A stretch of DNA of 64,000 nucleotides from Magnolia sinica. Its lineage: Eukaryota > Streptophyta > Magnoliopsida > Magnoliales > Magnoliaceae. The notes beneath the pieces are model-generated. The model was not told the origin of the DNA and searched no databases. It saw only the letters and a list, made by a program, of their open reading frames with translations. Below, piece after piece: positions 15,101 to 33,570 of the stretch. The translations under genes and the position numbers were made by a program. The stretch spans positions 18,370,001 to 18,434,000 of the forward strand of contig NC_080588.1 of NCBI RefSeq assembly GCF_029962835.1, given 5' to 3'. Within the stretch, counting starts at the first letter, position 1, and each line of letters opens with the position of its first letter.

Positions 15101-15305
15101 AGCAACTGGATTTAGCGATGAATCCCAGATTTCAGAGTAACATAGCGCTAACTATTCTACAGGTTTTGAGTCATGCAGATCAAATTTAAAGTGATTGATG
15201 CAAATTTCACAAGCAATCGAGTTAAGCGCTAATTACCCTAAAAAGCTTCTAAGGAAAATAGAGGTAGTACTCGGGTCTTGGCACAAAATTTTCAGGGTCA
15301 TCACA
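12196..15305 (-). mobile_element. Solo LTR of a Tekay/Del-type Gypsy (chromovirus) family
   Basis: A 3110-bp stretch that begins TGTAACGCCCTGAAA and ends TCATCACA. A perfect 5-bp target duplication TGGTT (12191-12195 and 15306-15310) flanks it. Its start, its overall plan and its end match both LTRs of the full-length element at 43969-57472, so it is the same family in the same (minus) orientation. No internal coding region is present, so it most likely arose by recombination between the two LTRs of an inserted element. A pyrimidine-rich CT tract lies near 14460-14500. The small open frames inside are LTR sequence and not genes. Confidence 0.9.
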
Positions 15306-15318
15306 TGGTTGGACCAAA

Positions 15319-15856
15319 GGGAACGAGGATTGGCTACTCCCCTTGCGACTAGCCAATGGCTAGTGGTCATGTTGTTTGGGCCCCACCATGATGTATGTGT
15401 TTCATCCATGCCATTTATCTATTTTTCTAAATAATTTTATGGTATTAGCCCAAAAATGAGTATATCTCAATCTCAAGTTGACCACATTACAGGAAACAAT
15501 GTTGATTGAACGTCAACCATTAGAATTTGTTTGGGGGCCATAAAAGCTTGTATCAAGCTGATCTTTGTTTTTTTTTCCCCTTCATCTAGGACTATATGAC
15601 CTAATCAACAGATTGGATGTCAAATATACAGTACAATGGGCCTCAGGATGATCTTAATGGTGGATATCCAATCACTATTGTTTTCGATTGGTGTGGTTCA
15701 CGCCAGATTTATATCCTTCTCATTTTTGGGTTCAAGCCCTAAAATGACCTAAAAAATGGATAAACGGCATGGATAAAAGACATACATTATGGTGGGACCC
15801 ACAGAGCACAGACCACTAACCACCAGGTTAGTGGCAAGCGGAGTAGCCAATCCATT
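15319..15856. mobile_element. Mutator-like MITE upstream of F3'H
   Basis: Starts GGGAACGAGGATTGGCTACT and ends with the complement of GGATTGGCTACTCCGCTTGC. The flanking 9-bp repeats TGGACCAAA (15310-15318) and TCGACCAAA (15857-15865) match at eight of nine positions. A 9-bp duplication is typical of Mutator-superfamily elements. The interior carries the shared module of this window. It has no coding capacity. Confidence 0.75.
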
Positions 15857-15944
15857 TCGACCAAAGGAGAGCTCCACCCACCTGGCTAGTGGCAAGCAGA
15901 GCAGCCAATCCGTTTATACCAAAGGCGAGCTCCACCCACCTCAA
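15857..15944. repeat. Short tandem duplication of a MITE end plus its flank
   Basis: 'accaaaggNgagctccaccc' plus 'acct' occurs twice, starting near 15860 and 15918. A copy of the MITE tail ('ggctagtggcaagc ... agccaatccgttta') lies between them. This looks like a roughly 57-bp tandem duplication that took in the end of the neighbouring MITE. Confidence 0.6.
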
Positions 15945-16473
15945 GGGAAACGGATTGGCTACTCCCCCTAGCTAGTGGTCGGTGCTCTATGAGCCCCATC
16001 ATGATGTATGTGTATCATCCACGTTGCCTATATATTTTTCTAGATCATTTAAAGATTTTAAGGTATGAGACAAAAAATGAGGTATGTCCCAATCTCAAGT
16101 GGACCACATTATAAGAAACAGTGTTAGATGAATGTTGATCATTAAAAACTTTCTGGGCCATAAAAGTTTTGAATCAAGCTTATGTTTTTTAACCTTCATC
16201 TAGGTCTGTATGACCTAATCAATGTATTGGATGTCAAATGCACAGTACAGTGGGCCTTAGGAGGATTTTAATGATGGATATCCAATCACTATTGTTTTCT
16301 TGTGGTGTGGTCCACCTGAGATTTATAACCCTCTACTTTTTGGAATCATGCCCTAAAATAATCTTTAAAAATAAATGAACAGCATGGACGAAACACATGC
16401 ATCACGGTGGGTCCCACGGAGTACTGACCATCAGCCACTGGGCTGGCTACAGGGGGAGTAGCGAATCCGTTTC
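15945..16473. mobile_element. Second Mutator-like MITE in the F3'H upstream region
   Basis: Begins GGGAAACGGATTGGCTACTC and ends with the complement of GAAACGGATTCGCTACTCCC. The flanking 9-mers CCACCTCAA (15936-15944) and CCACCTAAA (16474-16482) match at eight of nine positions. The exact right border is uncertain by 2 bp. The interior is the shared module. No ORF of interest. Confidence 0.72.
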
Positions 16474-16482
16474 CCACCTAAA

Positions 16483-16638
16483 CCCTCTCCCAGGACCCCA
16501 ACTACCACGAGCAGAACAACCACGTATTGACGATTCCGCATTCCACGAGTCAACTTCTAGACCAGCAGCTACGTTCCAACTCCCGGACGCACCCAGCGCA
16601 TGTTAGGAAGCGGTGTTAGGTATCAATCGCCACTCGCG
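16483..16638 (+). promoter_or_regulatory. Residual proximal promoter of F3'H between two MITEs
   Basis: About 155 bp free of recognisable repeats. Once the MITE at 16648-17271 is discounted, this sequence lies directly upstream of the TATA box. It holds motifs of the kind known in flavonoid gene promoters: the AC/MYB-like 'ccaactacc', an ACGT-containing 'accacgta' and 'agtcaact'. R2R3-MYB/bHLH and bZIP factors commonly use such sites in this pathway. Their function here is inference from motif resemblance. Confidence 0.4.
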
Positions 16639-16647
16639 TATATAACT
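16639..16647 (+). promoter_or_regulatory. Upstream copy of the duplicated TATA box (9-bp TSD, TATATAACT)
   Basis: TATATAACT here is identical to 17272-17280 on the far side of the MITE. It is the displaced copy of the F3'H TATA box, now about 680 bp from the start codon. It could still direct a longer transcript running through the MITE. Confidence 0.8.
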
Positions 16648-17271
16648 GGTAGCGGATTGGCTGGTGTACCACACACCACCGAACTGGCTGGTGTGTTGAT
16701 GTCACCAAGTTCTGTGGATCCCACCATGATCTATGTGTTATATCCAAACCGTCCGTCTATTTGTATATATCGTTGTAAATCTTGAGCAGAAAAATAAGTC
16801 AGATCAAAAGATCAAGTGGACCACACTGTAAAATGCAGGGGGGATTGAACGTCTACCATTGAAAGTTTTTGAGTGTCACATAAGTTTTGGATCAATATGA
16901 TATTTGTTTTTCCTCTTCATCCGGGTCTTTGTGACCCTATGAACGGATTCGAAGGAAAATAAACATTACATTGGTCCTAGGAATATTTTAACGGTGAGAA
17001 TCATTCTCCCCAATTCTATTTGTAGTGTAGTCCACTTGAGATTTGGATATGAATCATTTTTAGGATCATGATTTAAAATAATCTCCCAAAATGGATGAAC
17101 GGTGTAGATATAATAAATACTTCGTTGTGGAGCCCATATAACTTTGATCTCCTTAGATTTGAACCATTAGTACAGCTCGGAGCTGGAGGAGTTTTCAGCG
17201 CTCGTCTTCGGACGAAATGTACACACACCAGCCAGGTGTGTGGTGTGTGGTAAGGAAGCTAATCCGCTTCC
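16648..17271. mobile_element. Mutator-like MITE inserted in the F3'H TATA box
   Basis: A 624-bp element with inverted ends GGTAGCGGATTGGCT (left) and GGAAGCGGATTAGCT (right, complement) and a perfect 9-bp target duplication TATATAACT. The interior carries the shared module ('tcccaccatgatctatgtgt', 'aagtggaccacactg'). It is non-coding. Because the target site is the TATA box of the neighbouring gene, the element now forms everything immediately upstream of the core promoter. Confidence 0.93.
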
Positions 17272-17328
17272 TATATAACTCACACCACCACGACCCTCCC
17301 TCACACCATCCACACCACAAGTAAAAAG
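17272..17328 (+). promoter_or_regulatory. F3'H core promoter and short 5' leader
   Basis: TATATAA at 17272-17278 lies 57 bp before the ATG at 17329. A start site about 30 bp downstream would leave a leader of roughly 25-30 nt rich in CA ('ccatccacaccacaag'). The TATA sequence is the downstream copy of the MITE target duplication. The ATG context 'aaaaagATGgcc' has G at +4, favourable in plants. Confidence 0.75.
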
Positions 17329-18228
17329 ATGGCCCTTGTCGAGTTCACGCTTTTCGCACTTCTCTTACCCACCCTCGTCTACCTCCTCGTTAACCTGCGC
17401 ACTGTCTTCCTTAAACGTCACCGCCTCCCTTTCCCGCCGGGTCCCAAAGGGTGGCCGATCCTAGGCAACCTCCCCCAGCTGGGCCTCGTTCCCCACCACT
17501 CCCTCGCCGCCCTTGCCCGAAAGTACGGCCCGCTCTTCCATCTACGGATGGGATCGGTCCACGTGGTCGTTGCTGCGTCATCCTCGGTGGCGGCCCAGTT
17601 CCTCAAGCACCACGACGCCAATTTCTCGAGCCGACCGCCGAACTCGGGCGCGAAGCACATCGCCTACAACTACAACGACCTGGTTTTCGCGCCGTATGGG
17701 CCGAGGTGGCGCGCGCTGAGGAAGGTTTGTGCAGTGCACCTCTTCTCCGCCAAGGCGCTAGAGGATTTCCGGCACGTGCGGGAGGAGGAGGTGGGGAAGC
17801 TGACACGTGCGCTGGCGGGTGAGCCGTTGGCGAACGTGGGGCAGCTGTTGAACGTGTGCACGACGAACGCACTGGGGAGGGTTATGATAGGGAAGAGGGT
17901 GTTCGGGGAACTGGTGAGTGGTGGGGCCCACAAGGAGGCAGGGGAGTTTAAGGAGATGGTGGTAGAGCTGATGGTGCTGGCGGGGGTCTTCAACCTGGGG
18001 GATTTCATCCCGGCCCTTGATTGGCTGGACCTCCAGGGCGTGGCGAGGAAGATGAAAAAGCTCCACAAGCGCTTTGATGACTTCCTGTCCGGGATCATGG
18101 ACGAGCACCGTAAGAGTGGTGGGACCCACACTGATCTGTTGAGCGTCTTGATGAGCTTGAACTTGAAGCTGGACGAGGCGGAGGGAAGCGGCAAGTTGAC
18201 AGACACCGAGATCAAAGCGCTGCTTTTG
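17329..18228 (+). CDS. F3'H: Flavonoid 3'-hydroxylase (CYP75B), coding exon 1
   Basis: Encodes residues 1-300 of a 517-aa P450. F3'H is an ER-bound monooxygenase that adds the 3'-hydroxyl to the B ring of flavanones, dihydroflavonols and flavones, using NADPH-P450 reductase. It leads to quercetin- and cyanidin-type products. Visible parts: a hydrophobic N-terminal anchor (about residues 3-23), the proline-rich hinge PFPPGPKGWP (34-43), the F3'H-type VVVAAS motif (79-84), helix C WRALR (127-131), the stretch DWLDLQGVARKMKKLHKRFD, and GSGKLTDTEIKALLL at the end where the family usually shows GGEK. The exon ends in TTG before GTATG, phase 0, a conserved intron position in this family. Reading on into the intron would add 26 residues before a stop (18309) and give a protein lacking the haem site. 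The long open frames on the other strand (for example 17670-18215) reflect high GC and are not genes. Confidence 0.96.
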
Positions 18229-18699
18229 GTATGTCTATTCTCTCACTCTCTTTCTAGATTTCTCGCTGATTTCCTGCTGATCTCTTCAGAAACTTGTGTG
18301 GCCTATTAATGGTCAATCACCACAGTTTCCTATGATATGTTCCAGATAATTGTATTTTGTTTCATTTTTGGGATAATTCCCTAAAATGATCTGAAAAAAC
18401 GAATTGACGGCATGGATACAGAATACATACATCAAGCTGGACCCCACGTTAAGGGCTGCACCGTCTTGGATGAGTGGGGGTCTCACCTATTCCGCTCCCC
18501 TATTTCTTAGCCCGGGGTCACGGTCAGTCTGCTTCCCTAGCATGGTTGCTGTGCTGCAGGGCATGGGTTCGATCAAAATCTCAGATGCGCGCATCATCTG
18601 AGCTGAGCTTAGTATCCTCCATCTACACAGTGGGGCCTAAGAGTTCGCTGGATCAACAACTCAAGTGGCCCACGCCACACAGAACGGTAGGCATGAGAT
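18229..18699. repeat. Intron start and partial MITE module
   Basis: From about 18310 the sequence reads as a right-hand half of the shared module ('cacagtttcctatgatatgt', 'ttccctaaaatgatctgaaa', 'gacggcatggatac'). At 18480-18610 a GC-richer piece includes 'gggttcgatcaaaatctc', which I could not assign. Confidence 0.45.
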
Positions 18700-19836
18700 G
18701 GAAGCGGATTAGCTGGTGTACCACGCACCAGCGATATAGCTGTGTAATGACGTCAGTAAGTTCCGTGGGTCCCATCATGAGGTATGTGTTATATCCAAAC
18801 CGTCCATCCATTTGGCGAGATCGTCTTTAAGGCTTGATATCAAAAATAAGACAGATCTAAAGATCAAGTGGACCACACTGCAAAAAGCAGTGGGGATTGA
18901 ACGTCTATCATTGAAACCCTTTCGGGGTCACTGAATTTTTGGATGAGTATGATATTTGTTTTTACTCTTCGTCCATGTCTTTGTGATTTTATGAAAGGCT
19001 TGGATGGAAAATAAACTTTACGGTGGGCCCTATGAAAGTTTTAGTGATGAAAATCATTACCGCCGCTGCTATTTGTGGCGGGGCCTAGTTGACCTTTCCA
19101 TGCGATTCATTTTTTAATTCATGCACTAAAATGGAAGTGGATTGGGTGGTGTACCTCACACCAGCTATCACTGGTGTATTGACCTCAGCAAGTTATGTGG
19201 TATCATAACGCTTGAGATGAAAAATAAGACATGATTATCAAGTGGACCACACTGCAAAAAGTGGTCGGGATTGAACGTCTACCAATGAAACCCTTTCTGG
19301 TGCCACAGAAGTTTTGTATCAGTATGAAATTTATTTTTCCTCTTCATCTAGGTCTTTGTGACCTTACAGACAGATTGGATGGAAAATAAAAGTTATGGTG
19401 GGCCCTGCTATTTGTGGTGTGATCCATCTCATCTTTGAATATGATTCAGTTCTTGGACAATGCTCTAAAATGATCTCTGAAAATAAATGAACATATAATA
19501 AATACATCACTTGGAGGGCCATGTAGCTTTAATCTCCTTTGAACCACTGGTACAACTCGGAGCTCAAGGAGAGTCAGTCGCTCGTCTTCGCACGACACAT
19601 ACCTACAGCAGCTATATGGTGTGTGTACACTAGCCAATCCGCTTCCCACTAAAATGATCTCAAAAAATGGATGAACGGTGTGGATATAATAACTATGTTT
19701 TGGGGTCACGCAATTTTGATCTCCTTTGAACCGTTCGTACAACTCAGAGCTCGAGGAACATCAGCGCTCGTCTTACACGACGCGTACCTACACTAGCTGT
19801 ATCGCTGGTGTTTGGTACACCAGCCAATCCACCTCC
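18700..19836. mobile_element. Mutator-like MITE interrupted by a second MITE
   Basis: Starts GGAAGCGGATTAGCTGGTGT and ends 'ggtacaccagccaatccacctcc', the inverted counterpart. It carries 'atgacgtcagtaag', the shared module and 'cgctcgtcttacacgacgcg' near the right end. A second element (19133-19646) sits inside it, so its own length is about 614 bp. The 9-mers next to its ends (gcatgagat and ccatgctca) do not match convincingly, so this is an older insertion or its ends are misplaced by a few bases. Confidence 0.75.
19133..19646. mobile_element. Nested Mutator-like MITE with perfect 9-bp TSD CACTAAAAT
   Basis: A 514-bp element with ends GGAAGTGGATTGGGTGGTGT and, as complement, GGAAGCGGATTGGCTAGTGT. 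CACTAAAAT at 19124-19132 and 19647-19655 is a perfect 9-bp target duplication. It was taken from the host MITE's own 'gcactaaaatgatctc' phrase. This gives the order of the two insertions and fixes the target-duplication length of the family. Confidence 0.93.
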
Positions 19837-19964
19837 CCATGCTCATGCCAAACACAGGCTATATGTGGGCCGACAAGGGTGTTTATGGTCAAACAAACTC
19901 TGCAATCAAGCGAAACTCTACCGGACGCATTTAAGGGGCGCGGATTGGTCCATCACAGTTTGGT

Positions 19965-20507
19965 GGACGTGGATTGGCTATGGGTACGTGCGAAGACGCT
20001 CACCCTCCTCGGCTCCAAGTTGTACAAACGGTCCAAAAGGAGATCAAAGTAGCATCCCTATTTATTATATCCATGCTGTTCATCCATTTCAGTTTAAACC
20101 ATGATTTCAAAAATGAGTCATATCCAAATATCAAGTGGACGGCACTACCAATAAAAGTGAGAACAATAATTCTCACCCTTGAAACATTCATGGGGCATAC
20201 ATTATGTTTATTTTCTATCTAGTATCTTCATAAGATCACACGTACCTAGATGATGAGAGAAAAACAAACATCATATTGATCCAAAACCTTTATTACCCCA
20301 GAAGAATTTCAATGGTGGAAGTTCAATCTCCAGCTGCTTGTACAGTGTTCTCCACATATCTTGGGCTCAATCCTTATGACCAGCTTGCCAAATGGACAAA
20401 CGGTTTAGATAAAACACATGCCTCCCCTAATGTAACTCACAAAATTTGATGACGTTAACACCCCAGCCAGATTGGTGGTGTGTGGTACACCAGCCAATCC
20501 GATTCCC
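19965..20507. mobile_element. Mutator-like MITE with perfect 9-bp TSD CAGTTTGGT, opposite orientation
   Basis: Begins GGACGTGGATTGGCTATGGG and ends 'gtacaccagccaatccgattccc'. CAGTTTGGT at 19956-19964 and 20508-20516 is identical. The shared module runs in reverse relative to the MITE at 27473. It is inserted next to another 'gcggattggtccatcac' end fragment (about 19937-19955), so it may itself lie in an older relative. Confidence 0.9.
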
Positions 20508-20516
20508 CAGTTTGGT

Positions 20517-22442
20517 AGTTCATTCAATAAAATAGAAAATTTTATTCTATTTCATTTTATTTTATTTATTTATTTTATTCATTTATGGCATCAGATCTGA
20601 GGTAAACCGTACCCAAAAATCTTTTTGAAGGCCAAAAAAGTTTTGGAATAAGCCGATCTTTGTGTTTTCTCTTCATAAGTCTGCCTAACACAGGAGAGAG
20701 AAAAAACATGACAGAATACGTTACTATAGACCTTGAGAAAATTTTAGTTATAGCCCGTTTCGAATCACTATTTCATTTTATTTTATTTATTTATTTTGTC
20801 TAATGTCCTGTTTATTTTGTCTCATGCGTTATAATGAGCTCAAAAAAGTGAAACAAAACAGGAAGCTAATCCGTGGTAGGTTTGCGTTAGTGACGTCGAC
20901 ACACCGACAAGTCGGTTTCCAAACCACAATACATCATTTTCCCAAGTCATGGATCCATTGAATCGCTTGTGCATTTAATAAATTCAACGTCTCGCTAGAA
21001 AGAGCTAATTACTCCGCCATTGAATCCGCCTGCATCATGACGTAAGGAAACCATCGTGGCCCTTGACGTGGTCTAGTGACATCGCGGTGGCAGTTCACTT
21101 TTCTTTGGGCCTGTTTGACTTTTCAAATAATATGCAAATACTTCCTAATCCTGCCTAGGACAGTTGCGAAATAAATATGGGGTCCACTGTTATGCATGCG
21201 GCTTATTCACACCATCTCCATGAGTCCAAAATTGAAGCAGGTACTTAAAAAATGAAGTAGATCCAAAGTTAAGTAGATTAGCCGAAACTGAACACTTATT
21301 GTTCAAAACTTTTTAAGTCCTTCATAAATTTTAAGTCTCTCATAAATTTTTGCTTAACCTAATTTATTTATGTTTTCCTGTTATCCGTGTCTGTGTGTGA
21401 ACATGTTCGGTGACTAGTAAACATTAATATGGATCTTGTAAAGAAACAATTGTCAACAGTGAACATTTTAAGGTTGTCATTTCCTTTGGTGTGGGCCACT
21501 TGAGTTTTGGATCCACCTTGTTTTTTGGCTCATGCCCCGAAATGTTTTGGTAAGATGGTTGGACGGCACGGATAAGTCACATATATTACAGTGGGCCCTA
21601 CAAATTTAAGTCAGTGTTTTTGAACCAGTTTTGGAGGCAGAAATACTTATCCGGGTTTTCAAACGAGCTACTAATAATTACCCTTCTAGAAAAGATACGG
21701 AAAATCAACAGGCAACCCTTTTTGGCCAACTATTTCCATAGCGAAGCAATTTTTGCCTTTTAAAAAAAAAAAAGGAAAATTCCATTTGGGATCCACTTAT
21801 TGTATGGTCTAGAAGAATTCAATTTGTGTTTCGTGAATGGTGGACCATCCATCTTTTACATCACCCCCACATTAACCGTGCATGAGATAAAGCAACTCAA
21901 TTCAATATTCAGGTGGCCCTATCATGGCAGCCACGTAAAATCACACCCGAAAACTCTTAAATTGGCTCAGTGTTAGTGCTATGTACCAGGCCGTATTTTT
22001 TTCTTGTTGGGTGGCACGGCCTAATTACTTTGCGACTGCCATCTTAACAACACTGCCGCATCAGGAAGGGTACCACGTGGATTGAGTATTACCTCTGAAA
22101 GCTTTTGACAGGAGCTTCATGCGACCGCAAGTTAGGTGGGGTCCACTGTGATGTTTGTGAGAAAGCTATCCGAACAATCCGCTTTGCCAGAGTATGTTAG
22201 GACATGGGCCAAAAATAAAGTTGATTCAAAACTCAAGTGTGTTGAATGGCATGAAAAAGTGTCAAGTGAAATGGCTACCATTGAAACCTCCTGCGGTGTT
22301 TATATGCCATCGACGTAGTTGATAAGTCACTCTTGCTGGGACGAATTGAAAACACAAAAAATATTAGCTTCTTCTAAAACTTCCGTGGCCCCACACATAT
22401 GTCAACGGTGGACATTTAATCTTCATTGTTTCACGGTTTAAG

Positions 22443-22479
<37 letters not shown>

Positions 22480-22705
22480 TTTCTGCCTCACTTTCAAGTA
22501 GTACGAAGTTCCCGTGAAAGGCTTTGGAGGAATCCGCGTCCTCACTATGGCAGGCGTCCCCATCCCCACTTTTCACGTGGTGGGGCATATCTGAGTTTCG
22601 GACCGGCATGATTTTTGAACTCAGTTCGGGGACGCTCGGTTTGCTTTCTGTCACGTGTCCCTATCGGACGTTGCGTTCGCTTTCTGTCAGTTGTCTCTAT
22701 CCGAC
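20517..22705. repeat. Intron segment with MITE-module fragments, no gene
   Basis: Contains ATTTT-rich low-complexity sequence (20520-20580, 20770-20820). Partial copies of the shared module lie at about 21175-21615 and 22130-22430, followed by a poly(T)/poly(A) tract near 22446-22480. No ORF with a recognisable domain. Confidence 0.5.
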
Positions 22706-23496
22706 GGAAGCTGATTGGCTGGTGTACCACGCACCGGCTATACTGATGGGAATACCGGATTCTCTGTTTGCGTCAAGCAGCAAAATTAAATTGTGGTTGT
22801 TGCAGTTTGATTGGACCATGTGATTGTGTATTTGCTCGGTGGTTGAGATGGACCAATCACTGTTCCGCAAACTACGAAAAAAAAGCAGGAAAGTCGTGCT
22901 TTTGACAAACAGATGATGGTGTAGATAGGTGTGTTGGAAGACGAGCTCGGAAACTCCTCTAGCTCCGAGTTGTACGAGCGGTTCAAAGGAAATCAAAGTT
23001 ACGTGGCCCCACAACTATGTATTTATTATATCCACACCGTTTATCTATTTTTAGAGGTTATTTTAAAGCATTAGGAAAAAAAAAAATCATATAGGAAAGC
23101 TTAAATGGACCACACCAAAAATAGCAGCGAGGATAATGATTTTCACCATTAAAAAATTCATAAGGCCCACCATAACTTTTATTTTCCATCCAATCTGTTA
23201 ATAAGGCCACAGATACATGCATGAAGAGGAAAAACAAATTTCATATTAATCTAAAACTTCTTTGACCCCCAAAAGGGTTTCAATGGTAGATAGTTCAATC
23301 CCCTACTGCTTTTTGCAGTGTGGTCCACTTGATATTTAGATCTGTCTTATTTTCCGGCTCAAGCCTTAAGACGTGCTCACCAAATGGAAGAATGGTTTAG
23401 ATATAACACATACCTCACATACCTCATGATGGGACCCACTGACGTTAATACACTAGCTATATAACTGCTGTGTGGTACACCAGGCAATCCGCTTCC
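22706..23496. mobile_element. Mutator-like MITE in the F3'H intron
   Basis: Begins GGAAGCTGATTGGCTGGTGT and ends 'ggtacaccaggcaatccgcttcc'. The adjacent 9-mers CTATCCGAC (22697-22705) and CTATGGAAC (23497-23505) agree at six of nine positions, a decayed duplication. The left part (about 22745-22900) is unrelated to the other copies, so the element has an internal replacement or insertion. The shared module resumes near 22915 in reverse orientation. Confidence 0.72.
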
Positions 23497-23504
23497 CTAT
23501 GGAA

Positions 23505-26500
23505 CACGGCCGTGCTAGGATCGATAATACAGCCGATCCAAACTTCCACTTCCACCTAAATAAGGTGTCAATAAAGATCTTTCATAACACGGGTGAGTGG
23601 ATCACTCAGAGTAATAGTAAAAATGCATATTTTGAAAGAATAATGTGATATTGAATGGAAAACAAACTCAACATATGAATGTAGATTTAAATTATAATTA
23701 AAAACTATAGTTAAGAATTATTACTACTTTTAAAATAAATTAAGATAAAAGATAAATTAATAGATTGTTTTTTATTGTTGTTGATTTTGATATTGATTGT
23801 TTGGTTTATTGGTTGGTTTGATTATTCTTTGTTCATTTATTCTGTTTGTTATATAGTTCCGTTGCAGCTTGTTTTTTCAAATCTTTCTTTTATTATGGTT
23901 ATGATAGTTGAAATTTTTTTCCATAAATTCTTCTTTTGTTATATTTCCATTTTGTGACTATTCATCTTCTGTCAGTCAAGCTTTTTTTTTTTTTTTATTA
24001 TTATTATTTTTTTTTTATTGGCTGCGTGTTTTGATTCGGCACACATCTCGACCGCTCGTTCCATTTTTGAACACCTCTCGACCACCTTTTCTGCTTTCAT
24101 ACACTTCTTAGCCACTTGTTCTGATTTTGTACTCCTATTGGCCGCTCATTCCATTTCTAGACGCTTCTTGACAGCTTGGTCTACTTTTAGACACCTCTTG
24201 ACTGCTCGGTTTACTTTTGGACACCTCTCGGTCGCCTCCTGGATGTCTCTTTAGTTTGCTTTTGAATAACTCTCAGCTATTCTATCTTATCATTTTGACA
24301 GTTGTAATTCTATAAAAAGCACTTCAAGTATCTTTGAAGATCTTTAGCATACTATATCTTTCCTATACTATAACCTGCATCATTTTTCAACTGGGTTTCC
24401 AAAGAATGGTCAGAATTAGGGTACAACATTACCTCCACATCGCTTTGCCCTTGGTAAAAGGTGAATGTGATGTTGATTTGTTATTTAGCGCAATAAATGT
24501 GACTGCTCAGCCGTGTAAAAACATCAATTTCGACAATCTTTGTCGAACTCGGCCATCTTGATAAAAAAACATTAAAGTTCGTCAACTTGGGCATTTTGGC
24601 TGAAAAATAATAAATTTGGATATCTTGGTCAAAAAATGGCAAATTCGGTCAGTTTGGTCGAACTTGGCCGTCTTAGTCGACAAATGGCAAATTCGGCTAT
24701 CTTGCTTGAAAAACAGTAAATTCAACTAATTTGGTCGAAATCGGTCATCTTGGTCGAAAAATAACAAATTTGGTCATCTTAGTTGAACTCCGTTGTCTTA
24801 ATCGAGAGATAGTAAATTTAATTGTCTTAATTGAACTCGGCTATCTTGGTAAAAAAATAGAAAATTTAACTACTTTGGTTGAATTTGGTCATCTTGATCA
24901 AAAAACGGTAAAGTCGGTCATAATAATGGAGACTGTTAATCAACCCATTTTGATTAGGGCTTATGGTTAACCGAGGTAGTAATACAAGTGAGAACTTGGC
25001 CTCCAACTTTGTAGAACATTTAAATAATTTGGTTACGATTCAAATAGCAAGATTTGACCGTCGGAGGTAGTTCAAGACCTACCTGGTTTTGTCTTCCATG
25101 ATACAATAGATTCTCAAGGGTTGCCCCTCATGTATACACTGGTTTCCTTCTTTAGGAACAACATTTTTGACCTCCTATTTTGGTCACCTGAATTTAGCAC
25201 ATGGCGAAAGATTCCACACTTCCTATATAGCAAGAGACGTATTCCGTTGCGAAAGAGATACCCGTACTGTTGAATATGATGTTGGCGCCACATGTTGTAC
25301 TGATGATGTTGGTGCTAGATTTCTGACAAAAAAAATATTGACTTGTTGTTGAGGCATCACAGGTGTTTTTTTCGACAAAAAAAGCCATCATCCGATTCAT
25401 GTTTTCGGTATTACTAGAGATCCATTTGCCTAAAGTTTCAACTTGAACTCATAACTGTTCAACGATATTTTGAAATCCTTTTGCATATTGAGAATTGCAG
25501 CTGATAAAATCTCAAGAGGCTCAACCTTAGATAAGGATGTCATATTCCAGTTTAATGGAAAGATTACTAGATTTAGTAGCAAACCTAATTGCTAAGGTAC
25601 TTGATGAACTTGTCTTTGGCTCATGATTCCGAGAAATCATTGCATCGATAAGTGTACTTGTGTCAAAAGTATTCTTTTTACACAATTGATATAAAAGTAA
25701 TATTGATGACAGCCAAGTAGCTTTTCCAATCCCACAGGGCGTGCCAAAAATATTGGTACTTGCCAAAATTGTTAGACAGACGGTGCACAATGATTTTTTA
25801 ATGGCAATGAAGTAGTTTATCATTCCACCTAGCGTGTCAAAAATGTTGAATGATCAATTTACTTTCTGTCACGTGTAGTGTTGCGGGCGTGCTAAAATCG
25901 ATAATGCGGCTCGATCTAAATTGATCAACTTCGACCCTAAGCGTCGAAATAAACAAATACGTCCAAATGAACATATATGACTAGATTCTGAAAAGATTGG
26001 TTATGCAACCACTTGAAGAATTTATTAATGATCAGGCAATAATCGGAGGATGGGCTCTTCCTCCGAAGAGGGGTTGCTTTGTGCTTTCCATGAGAAAGGA
26101 CTTTCAAAATATTAGTGCAATCAAATAAAAAGGAAAAACTCACAATTGGTTAGTAGGAGAAATTATAAAAACGTGTCTTTTGAAAGAACCGCGTGGTATT
26201 GGATAGAGAACAAATCCAGCATGAGCATAGATTTGAATTACAAGTAAAGATTATAGCTCAAAATTACAGCTACTCCTAAGATAAATTGAGATAAAAGATA
26301 AATTGATAGATTATTTTTTTATTTGTTGTAGTTGATTTTGAGATTGATTGATTGGTTTGATTATTCTCCGTTGATTTCTTCTACTATGTATAGAGTTATG
26401 TTATAACTTATTTTTTCAGATTCATTTTCTATTACTACAATGGTTATGATTGTTGAAAAGTCATTCTCTAGATCCTTCTTTTTATTATAATTCTCTTATG

Positions 26501-26805
26501 TTGATTAGCTTTGTTCTGATTCTCGACCATTCATTCTACTTCTGTACGCCTCTCGACTGCTTGTTTTCCATTTGTACGTCTATCGGCTGCTTGTTTTATT
26601 TCCGAATATCTCTCAACCGTTCAGTCATCTTTTAGACATCTTTGCGCCATGTCCTAGATGCCTCTACTAAGTTTACTTTTAAATACATCTCAGCTGCTCG
26701 AACTCCAAATATCATGAAAGATCTTTAGGATGTTGTATTGTTCCCTTGGTATACCATGTGTCCTTTTCAATTAGGTTTTCCAACCATGGTCAGAAAGGTA
26801 CAAGA
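23505..26805. mobile_element. Probable degenerate non-autonomous LTR element (LARD-like) in the intron
   Basis: Two direct repeats of about 0.92 kb, 23505-24425 and 25870-26805, share the same order of landmarks: 'gtgctaggatcgataat' / 'gtgctaaaatcgataat', 'aagataaaagataaattaatag' / 'aagataaattgatag', runs of 'gacacctctcgac...', and a final 'aatggtcagaat' / 'catggtcagaaa'. The roughly 1.45-kb interior has no gag or pol. The repeats look strongly diverged, so the insertion is old. Clean TG/CA ends and a target duplication could not be placed. Broken and non-coding. Confidence 0.5.
24530..24930. repeat. Degenerate tandem repeat inside the intronic LTR-like element
   Basis: Repeated phrases 'ggtcatcttggtcgaaaaa' and 'tggcaaattcggtca' recur about every 28-30 bp (possibly as a 56-60 bp dimer) through some 400 bp. 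Similar short tandem structure ('gacacctctcgaccgctcgt' units of about 30 bp) occurs in both flanking repeats (24040-24250 and 26510-26640). Confidence 0.65.
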
Positions 26806-27472
26806 GTCTCTGAAAGCAACATTCGTCCCACAAAAAAAGCCCATCTTATGCCCTTCTTCATCATTAGTTTTCCACCTTTTAAAATTGGTATCTTCAAATC
26901 CTGCAATCTAGACCCTCCAATCACCGACCCAGCAGGAATGCGTTCATATCAGAGATATTTCACCTAAGAAGGCAATATCTATATGATTTTCCTTTCAAGT
27001 TTGAGCCACTTATTATTCTACTTTGTACGATTCATTTGCTAGTCACTATGGTTAGGATTGATTGATTACACAATGAAACCCAGAATTTGAATGGTCTCGA
27101 TTGCTTTATATCAGCACCACATGCAAGGAAGATAAGTCACCCTTGTTGAAGAGTGAGATTTGGCATGAAAATTGTAGGACTTTCACAACATCTCATCGGT
27201 GAAAAAGGTGGGCCACGCCCGTTATGAAAAATGCCTGAGCCGGAGGTTGGAATTTCCAAACCATCAGAACAGCTTTTCAGCACGGTCTCCACTTGTTAAG
27301 CTTGACAATCGTCCTTTGTCATGCACAACCTTCAGACCGTTCTTATGCCCACACCCCGTCTTTCCTGCCTCTCATACCGAGTTATTTCATTGATTGCAAA
27401 ATGCATGGTAGGAAATAGCCCAATCAAGCGGACGGCAGAGCATCCACGACTTTTACGTCCCTTAGGTTCGTT
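26806..27472. other. Intron stretch with no recognised feature
   Basis: No homologue of a P450 exon or known transposon is seen. A 64-codon frame at 27199-27393 has no recognisable domain. Confidence 0.4.
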
Positions 27473-28149
27473 GGAAGCGGATTGGCTGGTGTACTGCACA
27501 CAAGCTATATAGCTGGTGTATTGACGTCAGAAAGTTGTGGGTCCAATCATCATAAGGTATGTGTTATATCCAAACCGTCCATCCATTTTCTGAACTCGTT
27601 GTGAGTCTTGAGACGAAAAATAAGACAGATCTAATGATCAAGTGAACCACAATGAAAAGGTAGTGGGGGATTGAACGTCTGCCATTGAAACCCTTTTGGG
27701 TTCGCAAAACTTTTGGATCAATATGAAATTTGTTTTTCCTCTTAATCCAGGTCCTCATAACCTTGTGAACCGATTGGATGGAAAATATAAACGTTATGGT
27801 GGGCCCTACAAAAATTTTAACAGTAAAAATTATTATCTCCGCCACTATTTGTGGTGTGGTCCAGTTGATATTTGGATATGATTAGTACTCTAAAATGATA
27901 TGTAAAAATGGATAAACGGTGTGGAATATAACAAATACATCACTGTGAGGCCTTGTAACTTTGATCTCCTTTGAACCGTTCGTAAAACAAAGAGTTTGCG
28001 GAGCGTCAGCGCTCGTCTTCGCAGGACACGTACCTACATCAGCTATATAGCTGGTGTGTGGTACACCAGTCGTCGGCGCTCGTCTTCAAAGGACACGTAC
28101 CTACACCAGCTATATAGCTGGTGTGTGGTACACCGGCCAATCCGCTTCC
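27473..28149. mobile_element. Mutator-like MITE with a duplicated 3' end
   Basis: A 677-bp element, GGAAGCGGATTGGCTGGTGT at the left and its complement at the right. The flanking 9-mers AGGTTCGTT (27464-27472) and GGGTTCGTT (28150-28158) match at eight of nine positions. It contains TTGACGTCA near 27521 and near-palindromic 'agctatatagct' blocks at both ends. The last about 70 bp (from 'cagcgctcgtcttcg' to 'gtgtggtacacc') occur twice in tandem. Confidence 0.9.
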
Positions 28150-28946
28150 GGGTTCGTTAGAGCAAGGTTGGCTCTGGAAGCACGTGCTCAATGGTTGACT
28201 ATTGGGTGAAACCACCAGCATTTCAGAGAACTACCAAAGAAATTTGTTCCCTTGGGCTTATAATTTGGCGGAAGCGGTGGGACCTACCCTTAAATATGGC
28301 CTGACCTTGTACATGGTGGGCCATTTTCATGCGTATATACGTAGGCCTCATCCCTTCTTCCATTCTTCCATGGGTGGCGAAACTTACGGTGGTGCAGTGG
28401 ACTACCAAATCCGAACGTCACATTCACCATTTGCGGGAGAAATGAAACAGGTGACTGAGCGCGGGGAAGTGCTCGAGTTGGGCCTGTTTGGATGCATGCC
28501 GTTTGAGGCTTAGGCCTGAAAGTCTGGCAGGTTCAACTCGACGTTGGGTTGGGCTTGGGCAGGATGTATTGAGTTTAGTTTTGGGTTTGGGCTATACAAA
28601 CACCAACCTGATAAAACTTAGGTTGACCTCGAGTTGAGGTCTTGGGTTGTCCAACCCAATTCGAACCTGATCGATATATAAGTTACTTATAAATTATAAT
28701 TGAGTATGGATTGTCTGTTTTGAAGGCACATGAAATTCCAGTGCCGGTCTCATTGGTCCAAGTCATTTCGGATGACTCAAGATAACAAGATACACCGAAC
28801 TTCTCGGTGCCGGTCTCAATGGGGCCCACAGAGCACCAACCACCAGCCATTGGCTGGTGGCACTTGGAGTAGCCAATCCGTTTCCCTAATTTCTCCCCTT
28901 CTAAATCCATCTTTCCTAGTAAAATCCTGACAGGTGTAAATTTCAG
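28150..28946. repeat. End of the F3'H intron with repeat fragments
   Basis: 28520-28680 is a patch of 'gggttgggcttgggc' and 'cccaacc' phrases resembling a degraded inverted-repeat element. 28740-28885 holds the right end of a MITE of the GGGAAACGGATTGGCTACTC type, ending about 60 bp before the splice acceptor. The 28202-28513 frame shows no domain. Confidence 0.5.
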
Positions 28947-29600
28947 GACTTGTTCACTGCTGGCACGGACACGTCGTCAAGCACAGTGGAGTGGGCCCTA
29001 GCGGAACTCATTCGTCATCCTAAGATCCTAGCCCAGGCCCAAGCCGAGCTGGACTCAGTAGTGGGCTCGGCCCGACTTGTATCAGAAGCTGACCTGGCCA
29101 ACCTGCCCTTCCTAAACGCCGTCATCAAGGAAACCTTCCGGCTCCACCCCTCAACACCTCTCTCCCTACCTCGCATCGCCGCCGAGGACTGTGAAATCAA
29201 TGGCTACTTGATCCCCAAGAACTCTACACTCTTGGTCAATGTTTGGGCCATCGCTCGTGACCCAGCCGTGTGGCCTGAGCCACTCAAGTTCTGTCCCGAG
29301 CGGTTCCTCCCTGGTTCGCCTCAAGCCCACATTGACATTCGAGGCAATGACTTCGAGGTGATACCGTTCGGAGCGGGCCGGAGGATATGCGCCGGGATGA
29401 GCTTGGGCCTTCGCATGGTCTACTTCATGACAGCAACCTTGGTCCATGCATTCAACTGGGCCTTACCAGAGGGCCAAGTGGCCGAGAAACTAAACATGGA
29501 TGAGGCTTACGGGCTCACCTTGCAGAGGGCTGTGCCCTTGACCTTACGCCCTCTGCCAAGGCTAGAACCGCACGTGTACGGTGCGACTCAGTGCTCTTGA
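28947..29600 (+). CDS. F3'H: Flavonoid 3'-hydroxylase (CYP75B), coding exon 2
   Basis: Encodes residues 301-517 and the TGA stop. It holds the catalytic core: I-helix AGTDTS (305-310) for oxygen activation, K-helix ETFR (E362, R365), PERF (417-420), and the haem loop [10 protein letters not shown] (441-450) with the thiolate ligand Cys448. The C-terminal substrate-recognition region [13 protein letters not shown] is of the F3'H kind rather than F3'5'H, as far as I remember both subfamilies. The exon starts GAC after TTTCAG, phase 0, and joins exon 1 with no frame break, giving 517 aa (family about 505-520). Many F3'H genes have one or two further introns in this part; none is seen here. Every signature residue is intact, so the gene appears functional. 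F3'5'H or flavone synthase II are less likely alternatives. Confidence 0.96.
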
Positions 29601-29760
29601 ATGCACGTAGCTATTTTTCAGTGATGTTTATCACCTGCTCTATTAGTGTGTACGTGTGCGGGGTGTTTTACATGTTGATATATTCACCTGAACCGCATTT
29701 TACATTTCGTTAGAAGAATAAGATACTTTGGTGTAAGTTTGTTGCCTAAGGGAAATTTGC
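29601..29760 (+). other. Probable F3'H 3' UTR
   Basis: Follows the stop codon. It has T/G-rich stretches ('gtgtacgtgtgcggggtgtt') and AATAAG at 29717-29722, which may act as a near-upstream polyadenylation element. The cleavage site cannot be fixed from sequence alone. Confidence 0.4.
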
Positions 29761-30107
29761 TTTACATGCTGGGCTGGCCAGCTTGAGATGGGCCAGGCTC
29801 TTGTAAAACATTCAGAACCATCGGATTAGTGGGCGGGGCCTGGGTTCATTGTGGCCCTCATTTTGAACTGTTTCGGCCGTGTGTCATAGGCCAAGCTTAT
29901 TCGATCATTTGCTGAGGGGTTATTGTGTATGTATGATTCAAATTCAAATCCAAGATTTGAATATCAGGATCATCAACGAAGCATGATTATAAAATTATAT
30001 CCTCCATATGGTGGGTGAAAACCATCCACTGTACAGTATTGTGGTACAGGGCAATTGTACCCTAATATACAATGGCTTTTGCCAAATCTATGGATTAGAC
30101 CCGGCAA

Positions 30108-30110
<3 letters not shown>
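29761..30110. other. Intergenic sequence, no recognised feature
   Basis: Nothing coding is seen. A 'gtgggcggggcctgggttca' phrase suggests old repeat material. Confidence 0.35.

Positions 30111-30177
<67 letters not shown>
30111..30177. repeat. (TA)n microsatellite
   Basis: About 67 bp of nearly uninterrupted TA. It creates artificial open frames reading YIYIYI on both strands. Confidence 0.98.
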
Positions 30178-30179
<2 letters not shown>

Positions 30180-30608
30180 GAAAAGTTTTATGCATTCGAG
30201 CTCATGGGAACTTCCCATGAGGTCGAGCTGTGTGTAGCCACCGTGTCGAACATCTACCCCATCAGTCACATGCACCATTCCATGGTAGGCCTAGGGCTTA
30301 AAAATAAAGTCAATCTGTGACTTGTGTGGGCCACACCACATACAAAAGTTGAGAGGGGTTACCCTCCATTAAGGCCCACCGAGTGTCGTTCACAAAGCCA
30401 GCCCATCCATTATGTGTGTCCCACTTGGAGTTTAAGACACATCCAAATTTCAGTTGGGCCCCACCAAGTGCTTTTATATGTTTTAGGCATGTCTTCACAT
30501 GATTTTAGATGGTATGGTCCACTTGAGTTCCGTACACCGCTGATTTTTGGGATATCCCTATAATATAAAGGAGACTCCTCAAATGCACGGTGTTGATGTT
30601 CAACATAC
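30178..30608. repeat. Repeat-derived intergenic sequence between two (TA)n tracts
   Basis: Phrases such as 'gtgtgggccacaccacatac', 'aaggcccaccgagtgtcgtt' and 'atggtatggtccacttgag' mark another MITE-like sequence, bounded on both sides by (TA)n. No gene. Confidence 0.5.

Positions 30609-30643
<35 letters not shown>
30609..30643. repeat. (TA)n microsatellite
   Basis: About 35 bp of TA repeats. Confidence 0.95.
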
Positions 30644-30646
<3 letters not shown>

Positions 30647-31215
30647 CCTTTCACATTAAGTTGTTTCGCTGGGATGTTAAATGGGTCCCACTAAGATGTT
30701 AGTAATAAATTCACACTGTTTATACATTTTTAAAAATAATTTTATAGTATGAATCCAAAACTAAGGTACATCAAAATCTCAAGTGGGCCATACATTGTTG
30801 ATTGAACTCTAGCCATTAAAAACTTATTGGAGCTATCAAATTTTTGGATATAGCTGATATTTGTTTTTTGCTATTCTTGGTCTGTATAACCTAATCTACT
30901 GGTTGGACGTCAAGTAAACATCACGGTGGGGCCAACATTTGGAACAACTTGGATGTTGTGCAAACTTGACCTGTAGATACTTCGGATGTGATAACTATTA
31001 TAATAATGTTAAAGAGCATGGATCCCAGTAGGAATGATGTCATGGATGTTATGAACGGTGTATTTTCCTTTAGTGAGGCTCACTTGAGTACTGTATATTG
31101 CTTTTTTGGTCTCAAAGTCTAAAAATGAGCTCAAAAAACGGATGAACAGGTAAAGTTTTTACAAACATCATGGTGGGCAGCCTATGTTTACAAGGCCGCA
31201 ACTTGCTGCGAAAGA
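30644..31215. repeat. MITE-module copy, diverged
   Basis: Contains 'gggtcccactaagatg', 'aaaatctcaagtgggccata', 'aacatcacggtggggcc' and 'aaaaaacggatgaacaggta' in the usual order. Borders and target duplication are not clear. Confidence 0.5.
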
Positions 31216-31217
31216 CA

Positions 31218-31732
31218 GGGAGCGGATTGCGTCCTACCCCTGCCCGTCTCCTGCTTGGAATGGTCAGGAGCTTTGAGTGGCCACCGTGATGTATGGATGT
31301 TATCCACACCGTCCGTCCATTTTTCCGTATCATTTTAGGATATAAGGCAAAAAATGAGGCAGATCAAAGACATACGAAGACTACACAATGGGGATTAAAT
31401 TCTCACCGTTGAAAACTTCATGGGGGCGCCAGAAGTTTTGGATGGAGCAGATATTTGTGTTTTTTCCTCATCCAGGTTTTATGTAACTTTATGAATAGAT
31501 TGGATCGCACATAAAAATAACAATGTGCCCTGGAAAAGTTTCAACGGTGAGAATCATTACTACCACCGCTGCTTCCTGTGGTGTGGTCCACTTGAGCCTT
31601 GAATCTACTTAAGTTTTAATTTTTTCTCTAAAATGATGGTGTGGATAAGACCCATACATGACGGTGGCCACTCAAATCTCTTACCCGTTACCAACTGGAG
31701 ACGGGAAGAGGGTAGGACGCAATCCGCGTCCG
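31218..31732. mobile_element. MITE of the GGATTGCGTCCTACC end type
   Basis: The left end GGAGCGGATTGCGTCCTACC is mirrored at the right by 'gggtaggacgcaatccgcgtcc'. The interior is the shared module, and both ends repeat 'gagtggccaccgtgatgtat' / 'catgacggtggccactca' in inverse. A 9-bp target duplication could not be confirmed. Confidence 0.7.
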
Positions 31733-31768
31733 TCCAGAGACGATGAAGATTACGTCCTACCTCCGGAC

Positions 31769-32290
31769 GCGGAAGTTCCTACGCAAGGATGCTGGTTGGG
31801 GCCACAGTCATGTTTGTGAGAAATCTACTCCGATCATCAGTTTTTCGAGCTCGCTCATTTTAGGATGTTAGATAAAAAATGAGGTGGATACAAAATTCAA
31901 GTGGGCCACGCTAGAGGAAGCAGTGAGAATTCAGTGAGAACCGTTGAAAAATTCTTGTGGCCATAAAACCTCTCTTTGAAGCTAAAGTTTTTGTATTTTC
32001 AGTTGATTCCAGTGGTAAAGACATTATAAACGGTTTGGATGACATAAAAACATCAAGGTGAAGCTAGAAAGGTTTCAACGGTAAGTATTTCTTTCCCCAT
32101 TTTTCCCTCTCGTGTGGCCCACTTGAGTTTTGGATCCGCCTCATTTTTTTATTTTTTTTTCTTTTGTACTACAATGAGCTCGGAAGATGGATGAACGTGA
32201 TTACATTTCCCACAAACATGATGGTGGCCCCATCCAGCATCCTTGCGCATGAACTTCCTGCCGAAGGCTTTCCAAGGAAATCCACGTCCC
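31769..32290. mobile_element. MITE of the GGACGCGGAAGTTCC end type
   Basis: Left 'ggacgcggaagttcctacgc' with 'aaggatgctggttggggcca', mirrored at the right by 'tggccccatccagcatcctt' and 'ggaaatccacgtcc'. The interior follows the shared module. Borders approximate. Confidence 0.6.
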
Positions 32291-32304
32291 CTGCCCCCAG
32301 CTGG

Positions 32305-32830
32305 AAGCGAATTGCGTACTAGGTAACTCAGTACCTTGAGCGTAGGGAGTAAAACCTTTGAGGCCCACTGTGATTTATGTATTTTATTCAATCCGATTCA
32401 TTCATCTTAACAGATAATTTTATTGCATGAGCTAAAAATTAAAGCATTTAAAAAGTTAAAGTGGACCACACCATAGAAAACAGTATGAATTGAATGTTTA
32501 CCATATAAAAATTCTTAGACGCTAAATAAGTTTTGGATCAAGCTGATATTTGGTTTTTTCCTTCATCCATGTCTTTTTTGTCTTATGAACAGGTTGGATG
32601 ACAAATAAACATCACTGTGGGCCATAGGAAGGTTTCAACGGTGGAAATCATCATTCCCTTTGTTTCCTGTGGTCCAGTTCGCTTGAGCTTTAGATATGCT
32701 TAAATTTTGTGCTCAACCACTAAAATAATTTGGAAAAACTGATAGATGGCGTGGATAAATTAAATACATTCACGGTGGGCCTAACTAAGTTTACTCAGTA
32801 CAATAAGAGCTGAATAACTCAGAACGCAAT
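32305..32830. mobile_element. MITE of the GGAAGCGAATTGCGTACT end type
   Basis: Left end GGAAGCGAATTGCGTACTAG with 'taactcagtacctt', mirrored by 'aactcagaacgcaatccgattcc' at the right. Shared module inside. It abuts a further copy. Confidence 0.65.
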
Positions 32831-33570
32831 CCGATTCCCCCCCGCTCGGAACGGGCAGGAGCTTTGAGTGGCCAGAGTGATTGATGGGTTTTATCCACAC
32901 TGTCCATCCATTTTTCCTTATCAATTGAGGGTATTATCACAAACTTGAGGCAGATCCAAAGCTCAAGTGGACCACACCACATGAAGAAGCTGTGATAATG
33001 ATACTCACTGTTGAAACTTTTTTAGGTCCCACTGTGATGTTTATTTTCCATTCAACCCATCCATAAAGTTACATGGACAAATATCAACTTATCCAAAACT
33101 TTTATTTCTAGATGGAAGTTTTCAATGGTAAGAGTTTAATTCCCATTGTGTGGTCTACCTGTTTCTGGTATTTGACTAATTTTCTGGATCATATCCTGAC
33201 ATGATATGGAAAAATGTACGAATGGTGTGGATATAACCTATATATCATGGTACCCACTCAAAGCTCATGGGCAGGGTAGGATGCAATCGGCTTTCATCCG
33301 GAGAAACAGAGGGGATTGCGTGCTACCAACGCATGTAGCAAATGGCTATTGGGATGCTATTTGGGGTCCACGGGGATGCTTGTGAGAAATTCACTCTTAC
33401 ATCTGTTTTGCGATATCATTTCAGGGCATATAACAAAATATGAGACGTATTCAAAACTTGAGTGGGCCATACAAGATGAAAAACGAGAAAAAGACTTTCT
33501 TACCATTGAAACTTTCCTGGGCTCCACTTTGATGTTTATATTAAAAGTGCCCTGGTTTATAAATTAGCAT
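32831..33570. repeat. Further MITE copies, one nearly complete and one partial
   Basis: About 32831-33300 is a copy with 'gctcggaacgggcaggagct' at the left and 'gctcatgggcagggtaggat' at the right. 33310-33570 is the left half of another ('gattgcgtgctaccaacgca', 'tggggtccacggggatgctt'). No gene. Confidence 0.55.

Follow-up and report, generated by a model that had tools for sequence, protein, structure and literature searches.

The window, by which we mean the whole 64,000-nucleotide stretch of Magnolia sinica DNA analysed here (contig 16, 18,370,001-18,434,000), contains a predicted F3'H gene of two exons and, directly in front of it, a 624-bp repeat element which appears to have inserted into the promoter of the gene. 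The features of the promoter region and of the gene are the following:

15946..16474, forward strand: older related MITE just upstream, its right end and flank placed by eye
16475..16638, forward strand: stranded old proximal promoter, of which 16476-16638 resembles nothing else in the window
16639..16647, forward strand: upstream copy of the target-site duplication TATATAACT, TATA copy 1, adjoining the old proximal promoter
16648..17271, forward strand: 624-bp MITE, Mutator-type and non-autonomous as judged from its inverted arms, genome matches, the 9-bp duplication of its family and its ORFs
16648..16696, forward strand: left terminal inverted repeat arm, 49 nt, 82% complementary to the right arm
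17223..17271, reverse strand: right terminal inverted repeat arm, 49 nt, its inner part differing from the family consensus
17272..17280, forward strand: downstream copy of the target-site duplication TATATAACT, TATA copy 2, fused to the old leader and likely the working TATA box
17281..17328, forward strand: remaining host leader, pyrimidine-rich, with a CA at 17302-17303 and without an ATG
17329..18228, forward strand: F3'H exon 1, intact frame, ATG at 17329
28947..29600, forward strand: F3'H exon 2, after an intron of about 10.7 kb

The F3'H gene is intact. Its two exons encode a product of 517 aa, which is 100% identical over 517 aa to the NCBI flavonoid 3'-monooxygenase of M. sinica, and the NCBI protein starts at the same methionine as the ATG at 17329. 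The protein contains a P450 domain (PF00067, 7.2e-106), is 78% identical to a relative from Tasmannia, and the best 60 of its 342 matches to solved structures are other P450s. Near the C-terminus we find GLTLQ, which we take to be F3'H-like. We assign the gene to F3'H (CYP75B) and predict that its product carries out the 3'-hydroxylation of flavonoids. In a genome search in which 83 of 642 candidates were scored, the best match beyond the two exons themselves was 53% identical and no paralogue with an empty insertion site was found; the gene looks to be single-copy in the assembly.

The 9-mer TATATAACT occurs at 16639-16647 and again at 17272-17280, bordering the 624-bp element at 16648-17271, which has the left tip GGTAGCGGATTGGCT and the right tip AGCTAATCCGCTTCC. 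An initial annotation of this DNA had described the 9-mer as exactly flanking an element with inverted ends, which proved correct to the base, and we can confirm the distance of 57 bp from the start of the downstream copy to the F3'H ATG. It had further proposed that a continuous promoter emerges when the element is removed together with one 9-mer copy. This was reproduced by joining the flanks with a single copy, which then read ...CACTCGCGTATATAACTCACACC..., and it is likewise supported that the host DNA upstream was pushed 633 bp away. Over 48 nt the left arm of the element also matches the opposite end of other family copies, with up to 96% identity, and the open reading frames of at least 40 aa that touch the element reach 61 aa at most. 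The insertion of this element into the upstream region of F3'H seems well supported. As a separate observation, the right tip (17250-17271) departs from the family consensus in a cluster, with ACACCAGCC changed to AAGGAAGCT. The result is GGAAGC...GCTTCC, a short inverted repeat without mismatches that looks like the product of a templated (quasi-palindrome) mutation.

It may be asked whether the direct repeat is a target-site duplication at all: an old palindromic repeat could lie next to sequences that are alike by chance or because they are rich in TA. The 9-mer is AT-rich, and shuffling the window gives 0.68 expected matches to it, with the three found reached in 1 of 100 shuffles; the third copy (23458-23466) lies within another copy of the same repeat family. 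Exact 9-mer pairs spaced 500-999 bp apart make up 5.9e-5 of placements (1874/31,620,750, in a repeat-rich window), and the window holds one other exact 9-mer match at an offset of 633 (2/63,349 positions in all). Against chance stands the fact that the pair adjoins both tips of an inverted-repeat element exactly, and that, of the family copies whose tips can be recognised, half follow a 9-bp rule, as do copies in the F3'H intron. Given this family rule we reject a chance repeat, which we regard as hardly credible.

The element belongs to a repeat family. When the whole genome was searched for the 624 bp, at least 41 matches covering at least 79% of the element were obtained, the element itself included; this is a lower bound, as 40 of 13,454 first-look candidates were scored. 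The initial annotation would have doubted its own reading if no matching repeats existed elsewhere, and the genome holds at least 40 other long matches, with identities of 79-85%. For the analysis of duplications, 44 matches were placed in 40 loci, target included, and the 26 copies with both tips recognisable were used, the other 18 of the 44 placements being excluded for lack of two such tips. In these 26 copies the identity of the flanks is 0.534 at 9 bp, compared with 0.303 at 8 bp and 0.304 at 10 bp. Three or fewer mismatches in 9 bp are seen in 13 of the 26 copies versus 0.77% of 50,000 cross-copy draws, and two copies, the target and one other (L002), have a perfect pair. The remaining 13 have 4 to 9 mismatches as placed. 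Some of these are near-identical duplicates of each other (L007/L010 and L014/L015), which were retained in the count, and in two (L030 and L032) inspection by eye shows a pair displaced by one base. The absence of a clear pair in these copies may reflect decay, rearrangement, misplaced ends or dependent copies.

A 9-bp target-site duplication is the signature of this MITE family, and a 9-bp duplication is a hallmark of the Mutator superfamily. The earlier suggestion of a Mutator-type duplication is thus supported, with flank identity across the family peaking at 9 bp. A hAT origin, or one in another 8-bp superfamily, can be rejected since flank identity at 8 bp is at background (0.303). We also considered whether the family prefers TATA sites and rejected this, as among the 13 copies with up to three mismatches only the 9-mer of the target contains a TATA. 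With no such preference among the recognised duplications, the hit on the TATA box looks like luck.

Several relatives of the element lie close by, among them five more full or nearly full family copies in the F3'H intron:

18700..19836, forward strand: same-family copy, split by the nested copy at 19133-19646, its duplication unrecognisable
19133..19646, forward strand: same-family copy nested inside another copy, with the duplication CACTAAAAT, 9/9
19939..20506, reverse strand: more diverged same-family copy, 23% from a six-copy consensus
22706..23496, reverse strand: same-family copy with the flanks CTATCCGAC and CTATGGAAC, 6/9 (by eye)
27473..28149, forward strand: same-family copy with the duplication AGGTTCGTT and GGGTTCGTT, 8/9

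The older MITE upstream of the promoter (15946-16474) has a decayed 9-bp duplication, CACCTCAAG at 15937-15945 and CACCTAAAC at 16475-16483, with 7/9 positions in common. With the target included, six near-full family copies are found between 16.6 and 28.1 kb, and pieces of related MITEs are densely packed over the stretch 15300-33300, within F3'H and on either side of it. Outside this stretch the window has fewer family matches (near 12, 43 and 57 kb), and the viral contigs scanned held no match to the 23-base tip of the element. Elsewhere in the window, frames at 38844-40271 (reverse strand) and 60055-60528 (forward strand) resemble by eye pieces of LTR-retrotransposon pol, namely RNase H/integrase and reverse transcriptase.

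By these features the MITE family is Mutator-like in kind, and we looked for a transposon encoding a MULE transposase that shares its ends. At least 150 matches to the MULE domain PF10551 were scored in the genome, those listed exceeding the family cut-off. In 30 loci of these 150 matches, scanned over 1.5 kb on each side of the domain, an exact MITE end was found in none, and a 15-base stretch with up to three mismatches from the MITE tip in two. The better of these (two mismatches) is internal to one MULE (L082) and not at its end. This MULE is complete-looking: it spans 6.8 kb (L082:2133-8919), has inverted ends of 177 nt that are 91% identical and a perfect 9-bp duplication GGAGTTAGG, and contains an 820-aa frame with MULE, FAR1 and SWIM domains. 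By eye, its tip GGACGTGGATTTCCT has 11 of 15 bases in common with the MITE tip GGAAGCGGATTGGCT. In two further loci (L080 and L081) the MULE domain lies between inverted repeats of about 1.2 kb (76-77%), with several MITE-like palindromic units (66-77%) within or near them; TA microsatellites were seen at the outer edge of these long repeats. On contig 68 another MITE copy lies at a distance of 5-6 kb from a MULE domain, but it looks like a copy of its own among other related pieces. The exact parent transposon of the family was not found among the MULE loci scanned.

The target copy is 11.8% diverged from a consensus built without it, while 29 other aligned copies are 6.9-16.5% away. The copy at 19939-20506 (23% diverged) was excluded from this alignment and two near-identical pairs (L007/L010 and L014/L015) were kept in. 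The mutation rate given for M. sinica in an extract of PMC10999834 is 1.2e-7 per 30-year generation, or about 4e-9 per year by hand calculation. At this rate, also by hand calculation, the insertion happened at most about 32 million years ago; this is an upper bound because part of the 11.8% divergence precedes the insertion. In the 13 recognised duplications, target included, 17 of 117 positions differ, which by the same kind of calculation gives about 20 million years on average. The target MITE is probably old.

A perfect 9-bp pair next to an old element might suggest selection on the second TATA copy. We reject this, since 0 differences in 9 positions has a chance of about 0.24 under the family average, and for the same reason the perfect pair does not indicate youth. 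In the target copy, 5 of 52 CpG bases and 16 of 237 other C/G bases have decayed, and in the pooled other family copies the values are 13.0% and 7.6%. Heavy past methylation of the target copy is not supported by this comparison: as CpG decay is not clearly raised in it, the sequence gives no sign of a strong methylation target.

Between 13,000 and 18,400 only three stretches of at least 40 bp have no other match in the window, namely 15231-15316, 16476-16638 and 17278 onward. The old proximal promoter is therefore reduced to an island of 163 bp between the older MITE and the 624-bp element. The island contains two ACGT cores (16522 and 16571), two TTGAC cores and, on the minus strand, one MRE-like ACCTAAC (16615-16621); a motif scan found neither a G-box nor an E-box in it. 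The MITE contains three E-boxes (16813, 17033 and 17233) and one MYB core. All these motifs are weak hints.

The island also contains, at 16606-16613, the exact 8-base family tip GGAAGCGG with TGTTAGG on either side (16600-16625), 33 bp upstream of the TATA box. The site resembles the excision scar of an earlier insertion of the same family. In 20,000 shuffles of the island the tip appeared in 154, and the tip with a surrounding 6-bp direct repeat in 2, in a comparison made post hoc.

A functional TATA box has the form TATAWAW and lies about 30 bp before a YR start site. Here TATATAA begins at 17272, in TATA copy 2, and its first T lies 31 bp before the CA at 17302-17303. We consider TATATAACT the probable TATA box of F3'H, and the central claim of the initial annotation, that a MITE inserted exactly across a TATA-like sequence at the core-promoter position and duplicated it, is supported. 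The downstream TATA is the likelier working copy in view of the CA at 31 bp, the leader without an ATG and a start codon that is the same as in the NCBI protein.

TATATAACT might still not be a working TATA box, because TATAWAW is common in this AT-rich window. It occurs 91 times on the forward strand, once inside the element at 16764, and by simple arithmetic about 6% of given 40-bp stretches would contain it by chance. The insertion would then be real and the duplication of the 9-mer without special meaning, with F3'H starting elsewhere: inside the MITE, in the leader without the help of a TATA box, or at a distant upstream site from which the 5' leader is spliced. Such a start would fit with the 91 matches and with the shortness of a 26-nt leader, and mPing, according to an excerpt of PMC3782648, is a MITE that may act as a core promoter despite disruption of the TATA box. 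It is less easily reconciled with the position of TATATAACT, the CA at +31 and the pyrimidine-rich leader without an ATG; if the start were at the upstream copy, 11 ATGs and a long fold would precede the coding sequence. We think a start elsewhere unlikely.

The initial annotation had also suggested that two TATA boxes could give two transcript classes. This idea has to be revised: an RNA from the upstream copy would cross the whole element and contain 11 ATGs before the F3'H start, none of which opens a frame that continues into F3'H, and a very stable fold of -217.2 kcal/mol (z -9.2, 20 shuffles) is predicted for the 661 nt at its 5' end. Because of these ATGs and this fold, the upstream TATA copy is unlikely to yield protein efficiently unless the element is spliced out.

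Both copies could be used in another way, the upstream one driving a MITE-headed RNA that interferes with the downstream promoter or gives rise to small RNAs tuning F3'H, and the downstream one giving the real message. The upstream copy and the adjacent island are intact, CA sites are present at 16671-16678 and most of the predicted RNA is taken up by its fold. MITE hairpin transcripts made from a neighbouring gene promoter have been described as 24-nt siRNA substrates in an extract of PMC12595863. The upstream TATA has, on the other side, been separated from the old leader and start region, a search of 15300-17400 at the Rfam gathering threshold gave no family, and CpG decay in the target copy is not clearly raised. 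We regard the use of both copies as distinctly improbable. More speculative still, and very doubtful in our view, is a tandem core promoter with divided jobs, together with repeated family hits upstream and an excision scar that duplicated a MYB-like core. If this were true, the F3'H message would come from the downstream TATA and be controlled by sites within the MITE. The upstream TATA, still joined to the old proximal promoter, would give a full-length hairpin RNA of the MITE, and small RNAs derived from it would act back on the promoter, so that the old light/MYB input would tune F3'H negatively.

The explanation we favour, an insertion that copied the TATA box and left the downstream copy in use, begins with a non-autonomous Mutator-type MITE, presumably mobilised in trans by a MULE transposase. 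The staggered 9-bp site that it entered would have been the TATA box of F3'H, apparently a single-copy gene, and repair copied the 9 bases to both sides, as the sequence and the 9-bp rule of the family show. The presumed core promoter was in this way split into old upstream DNA, TATA and MITE on one side and MITE, TATA and old leader on the other. Most likely the downstream TATA would drive F3'H, transcription starting near 17303 and giving an ATG-free leader of about 26 nt. The old proximal promoter of 163 bp would act, if at all, from 633 bp further off, the intervening MITE sequence may bring its own sites or attract silencing, and the upstream TATA copy would at best give a hairpin-headed, poorly translated or aberrant RNA. 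Taken as a whole we hold this explanation to be highly probable. Because the TATA box was copied to both sides, F3'H probably kept a working start signal. The duplication itself is unsurprising, since any insertion that copies 9 bp and falls on a 9-bp TATA site must copy that site.

The closest precedent for the F3'H insertion would seem to be a maize Adh1 allele with a Mu element in its TATA box. In this allele, Adh1-3F1124, reportedly described by Chen et al. 1987 and Kloeckener-Gruissem et al. 1992, Mu3 lies in the Adh1 TATA box; the 9-bp duplication is said to recreate the box, and organ-specific expression to be altered. As the maize case is reported, both have a Mutator-type element at the TATA box of a metabolic gene, a 9-bp copy of the TATA and a retained gene. 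The maize allele, reportedly, arose in a Mutator line with a larger element and has a measured organ-specific change, whereas the F3'H case is a probably old 0.6-kb MITE in the reference genome of a wild tree.

Another comparison is mPing, which is of the PIF/Harbinger type and not Mutator. In rice promoters, as in F3'H, a small MITE near the core promoter parts upstream elements from the TATA box (excerpt of PMC3782648). The same excerpt explains the weakened cold response of OsDREB1A in part by the distance added between upstream elements and the start. By analogy, it is plausible that distance-sensitive input to F3'H was lost through the insertion. In the mPing study lines with and without the insertion were compared and expression was measured (PMC3782648). 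Mobile elements upstream of flavonoid genes are also reported in extracts on TORE1 in torenia F3H (PMC4234012) and on a hAT element in the promoter of Saintpaulia F3'5'H (PMC10794571). These resemble the F3'H MITE in position but concern other genes and element classes, and their effect on flower colour is known; no duplicated TATA box is mentioned for them in these extracts. For maize Mu, an extract of PMC2774946 describes 9-bp duplications and a preference for regions near transcription starts, as in F3'H, where the insertion is near a presumed start and has a 9-bp duplication. That study, in the part cited, concerns active Mu, whereas we describe one old insertion, and TATATAACT departs from the target pattern SW::SWNNNNNWS::WS given there for maize Mu (PMC2774946).

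We found no report of a MITE in an F3'H promoter in Magnolia in the literature searched, most subscription journals lying outside the search, and nothing relevant on duplicated TATA boxes among the literature matches listed. In the main text of the M. sinica genome paper the words 'anthocyanin', 'flavonoid' and 'MITE' occur 0 times. The kind of event is known from maize, and the novelty would lie in the case itself: a wild magnolia in which the F3'H gene, seemingly the only one, has a MITE of probably old age across its likely TATA box.

One would normally expect a core promoter to be destroyed when an element inserts into it, but here the copying of 9 bp plausibly rescued the TATA box of F3'H. 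The site is a simple natural experiment, in which the presence or absence of the element can be typed and the starts can be read from existing full-length cDNA. According to extracts of PMC10999834, resequenced samples exist for 21 M. sinica and 22 related Magnoliaceae, and Iso-seq exists for M. sinica. F3'H is apparently the sole gene for an enzyme of pigments and UV screens in this highly threatened wild tree.
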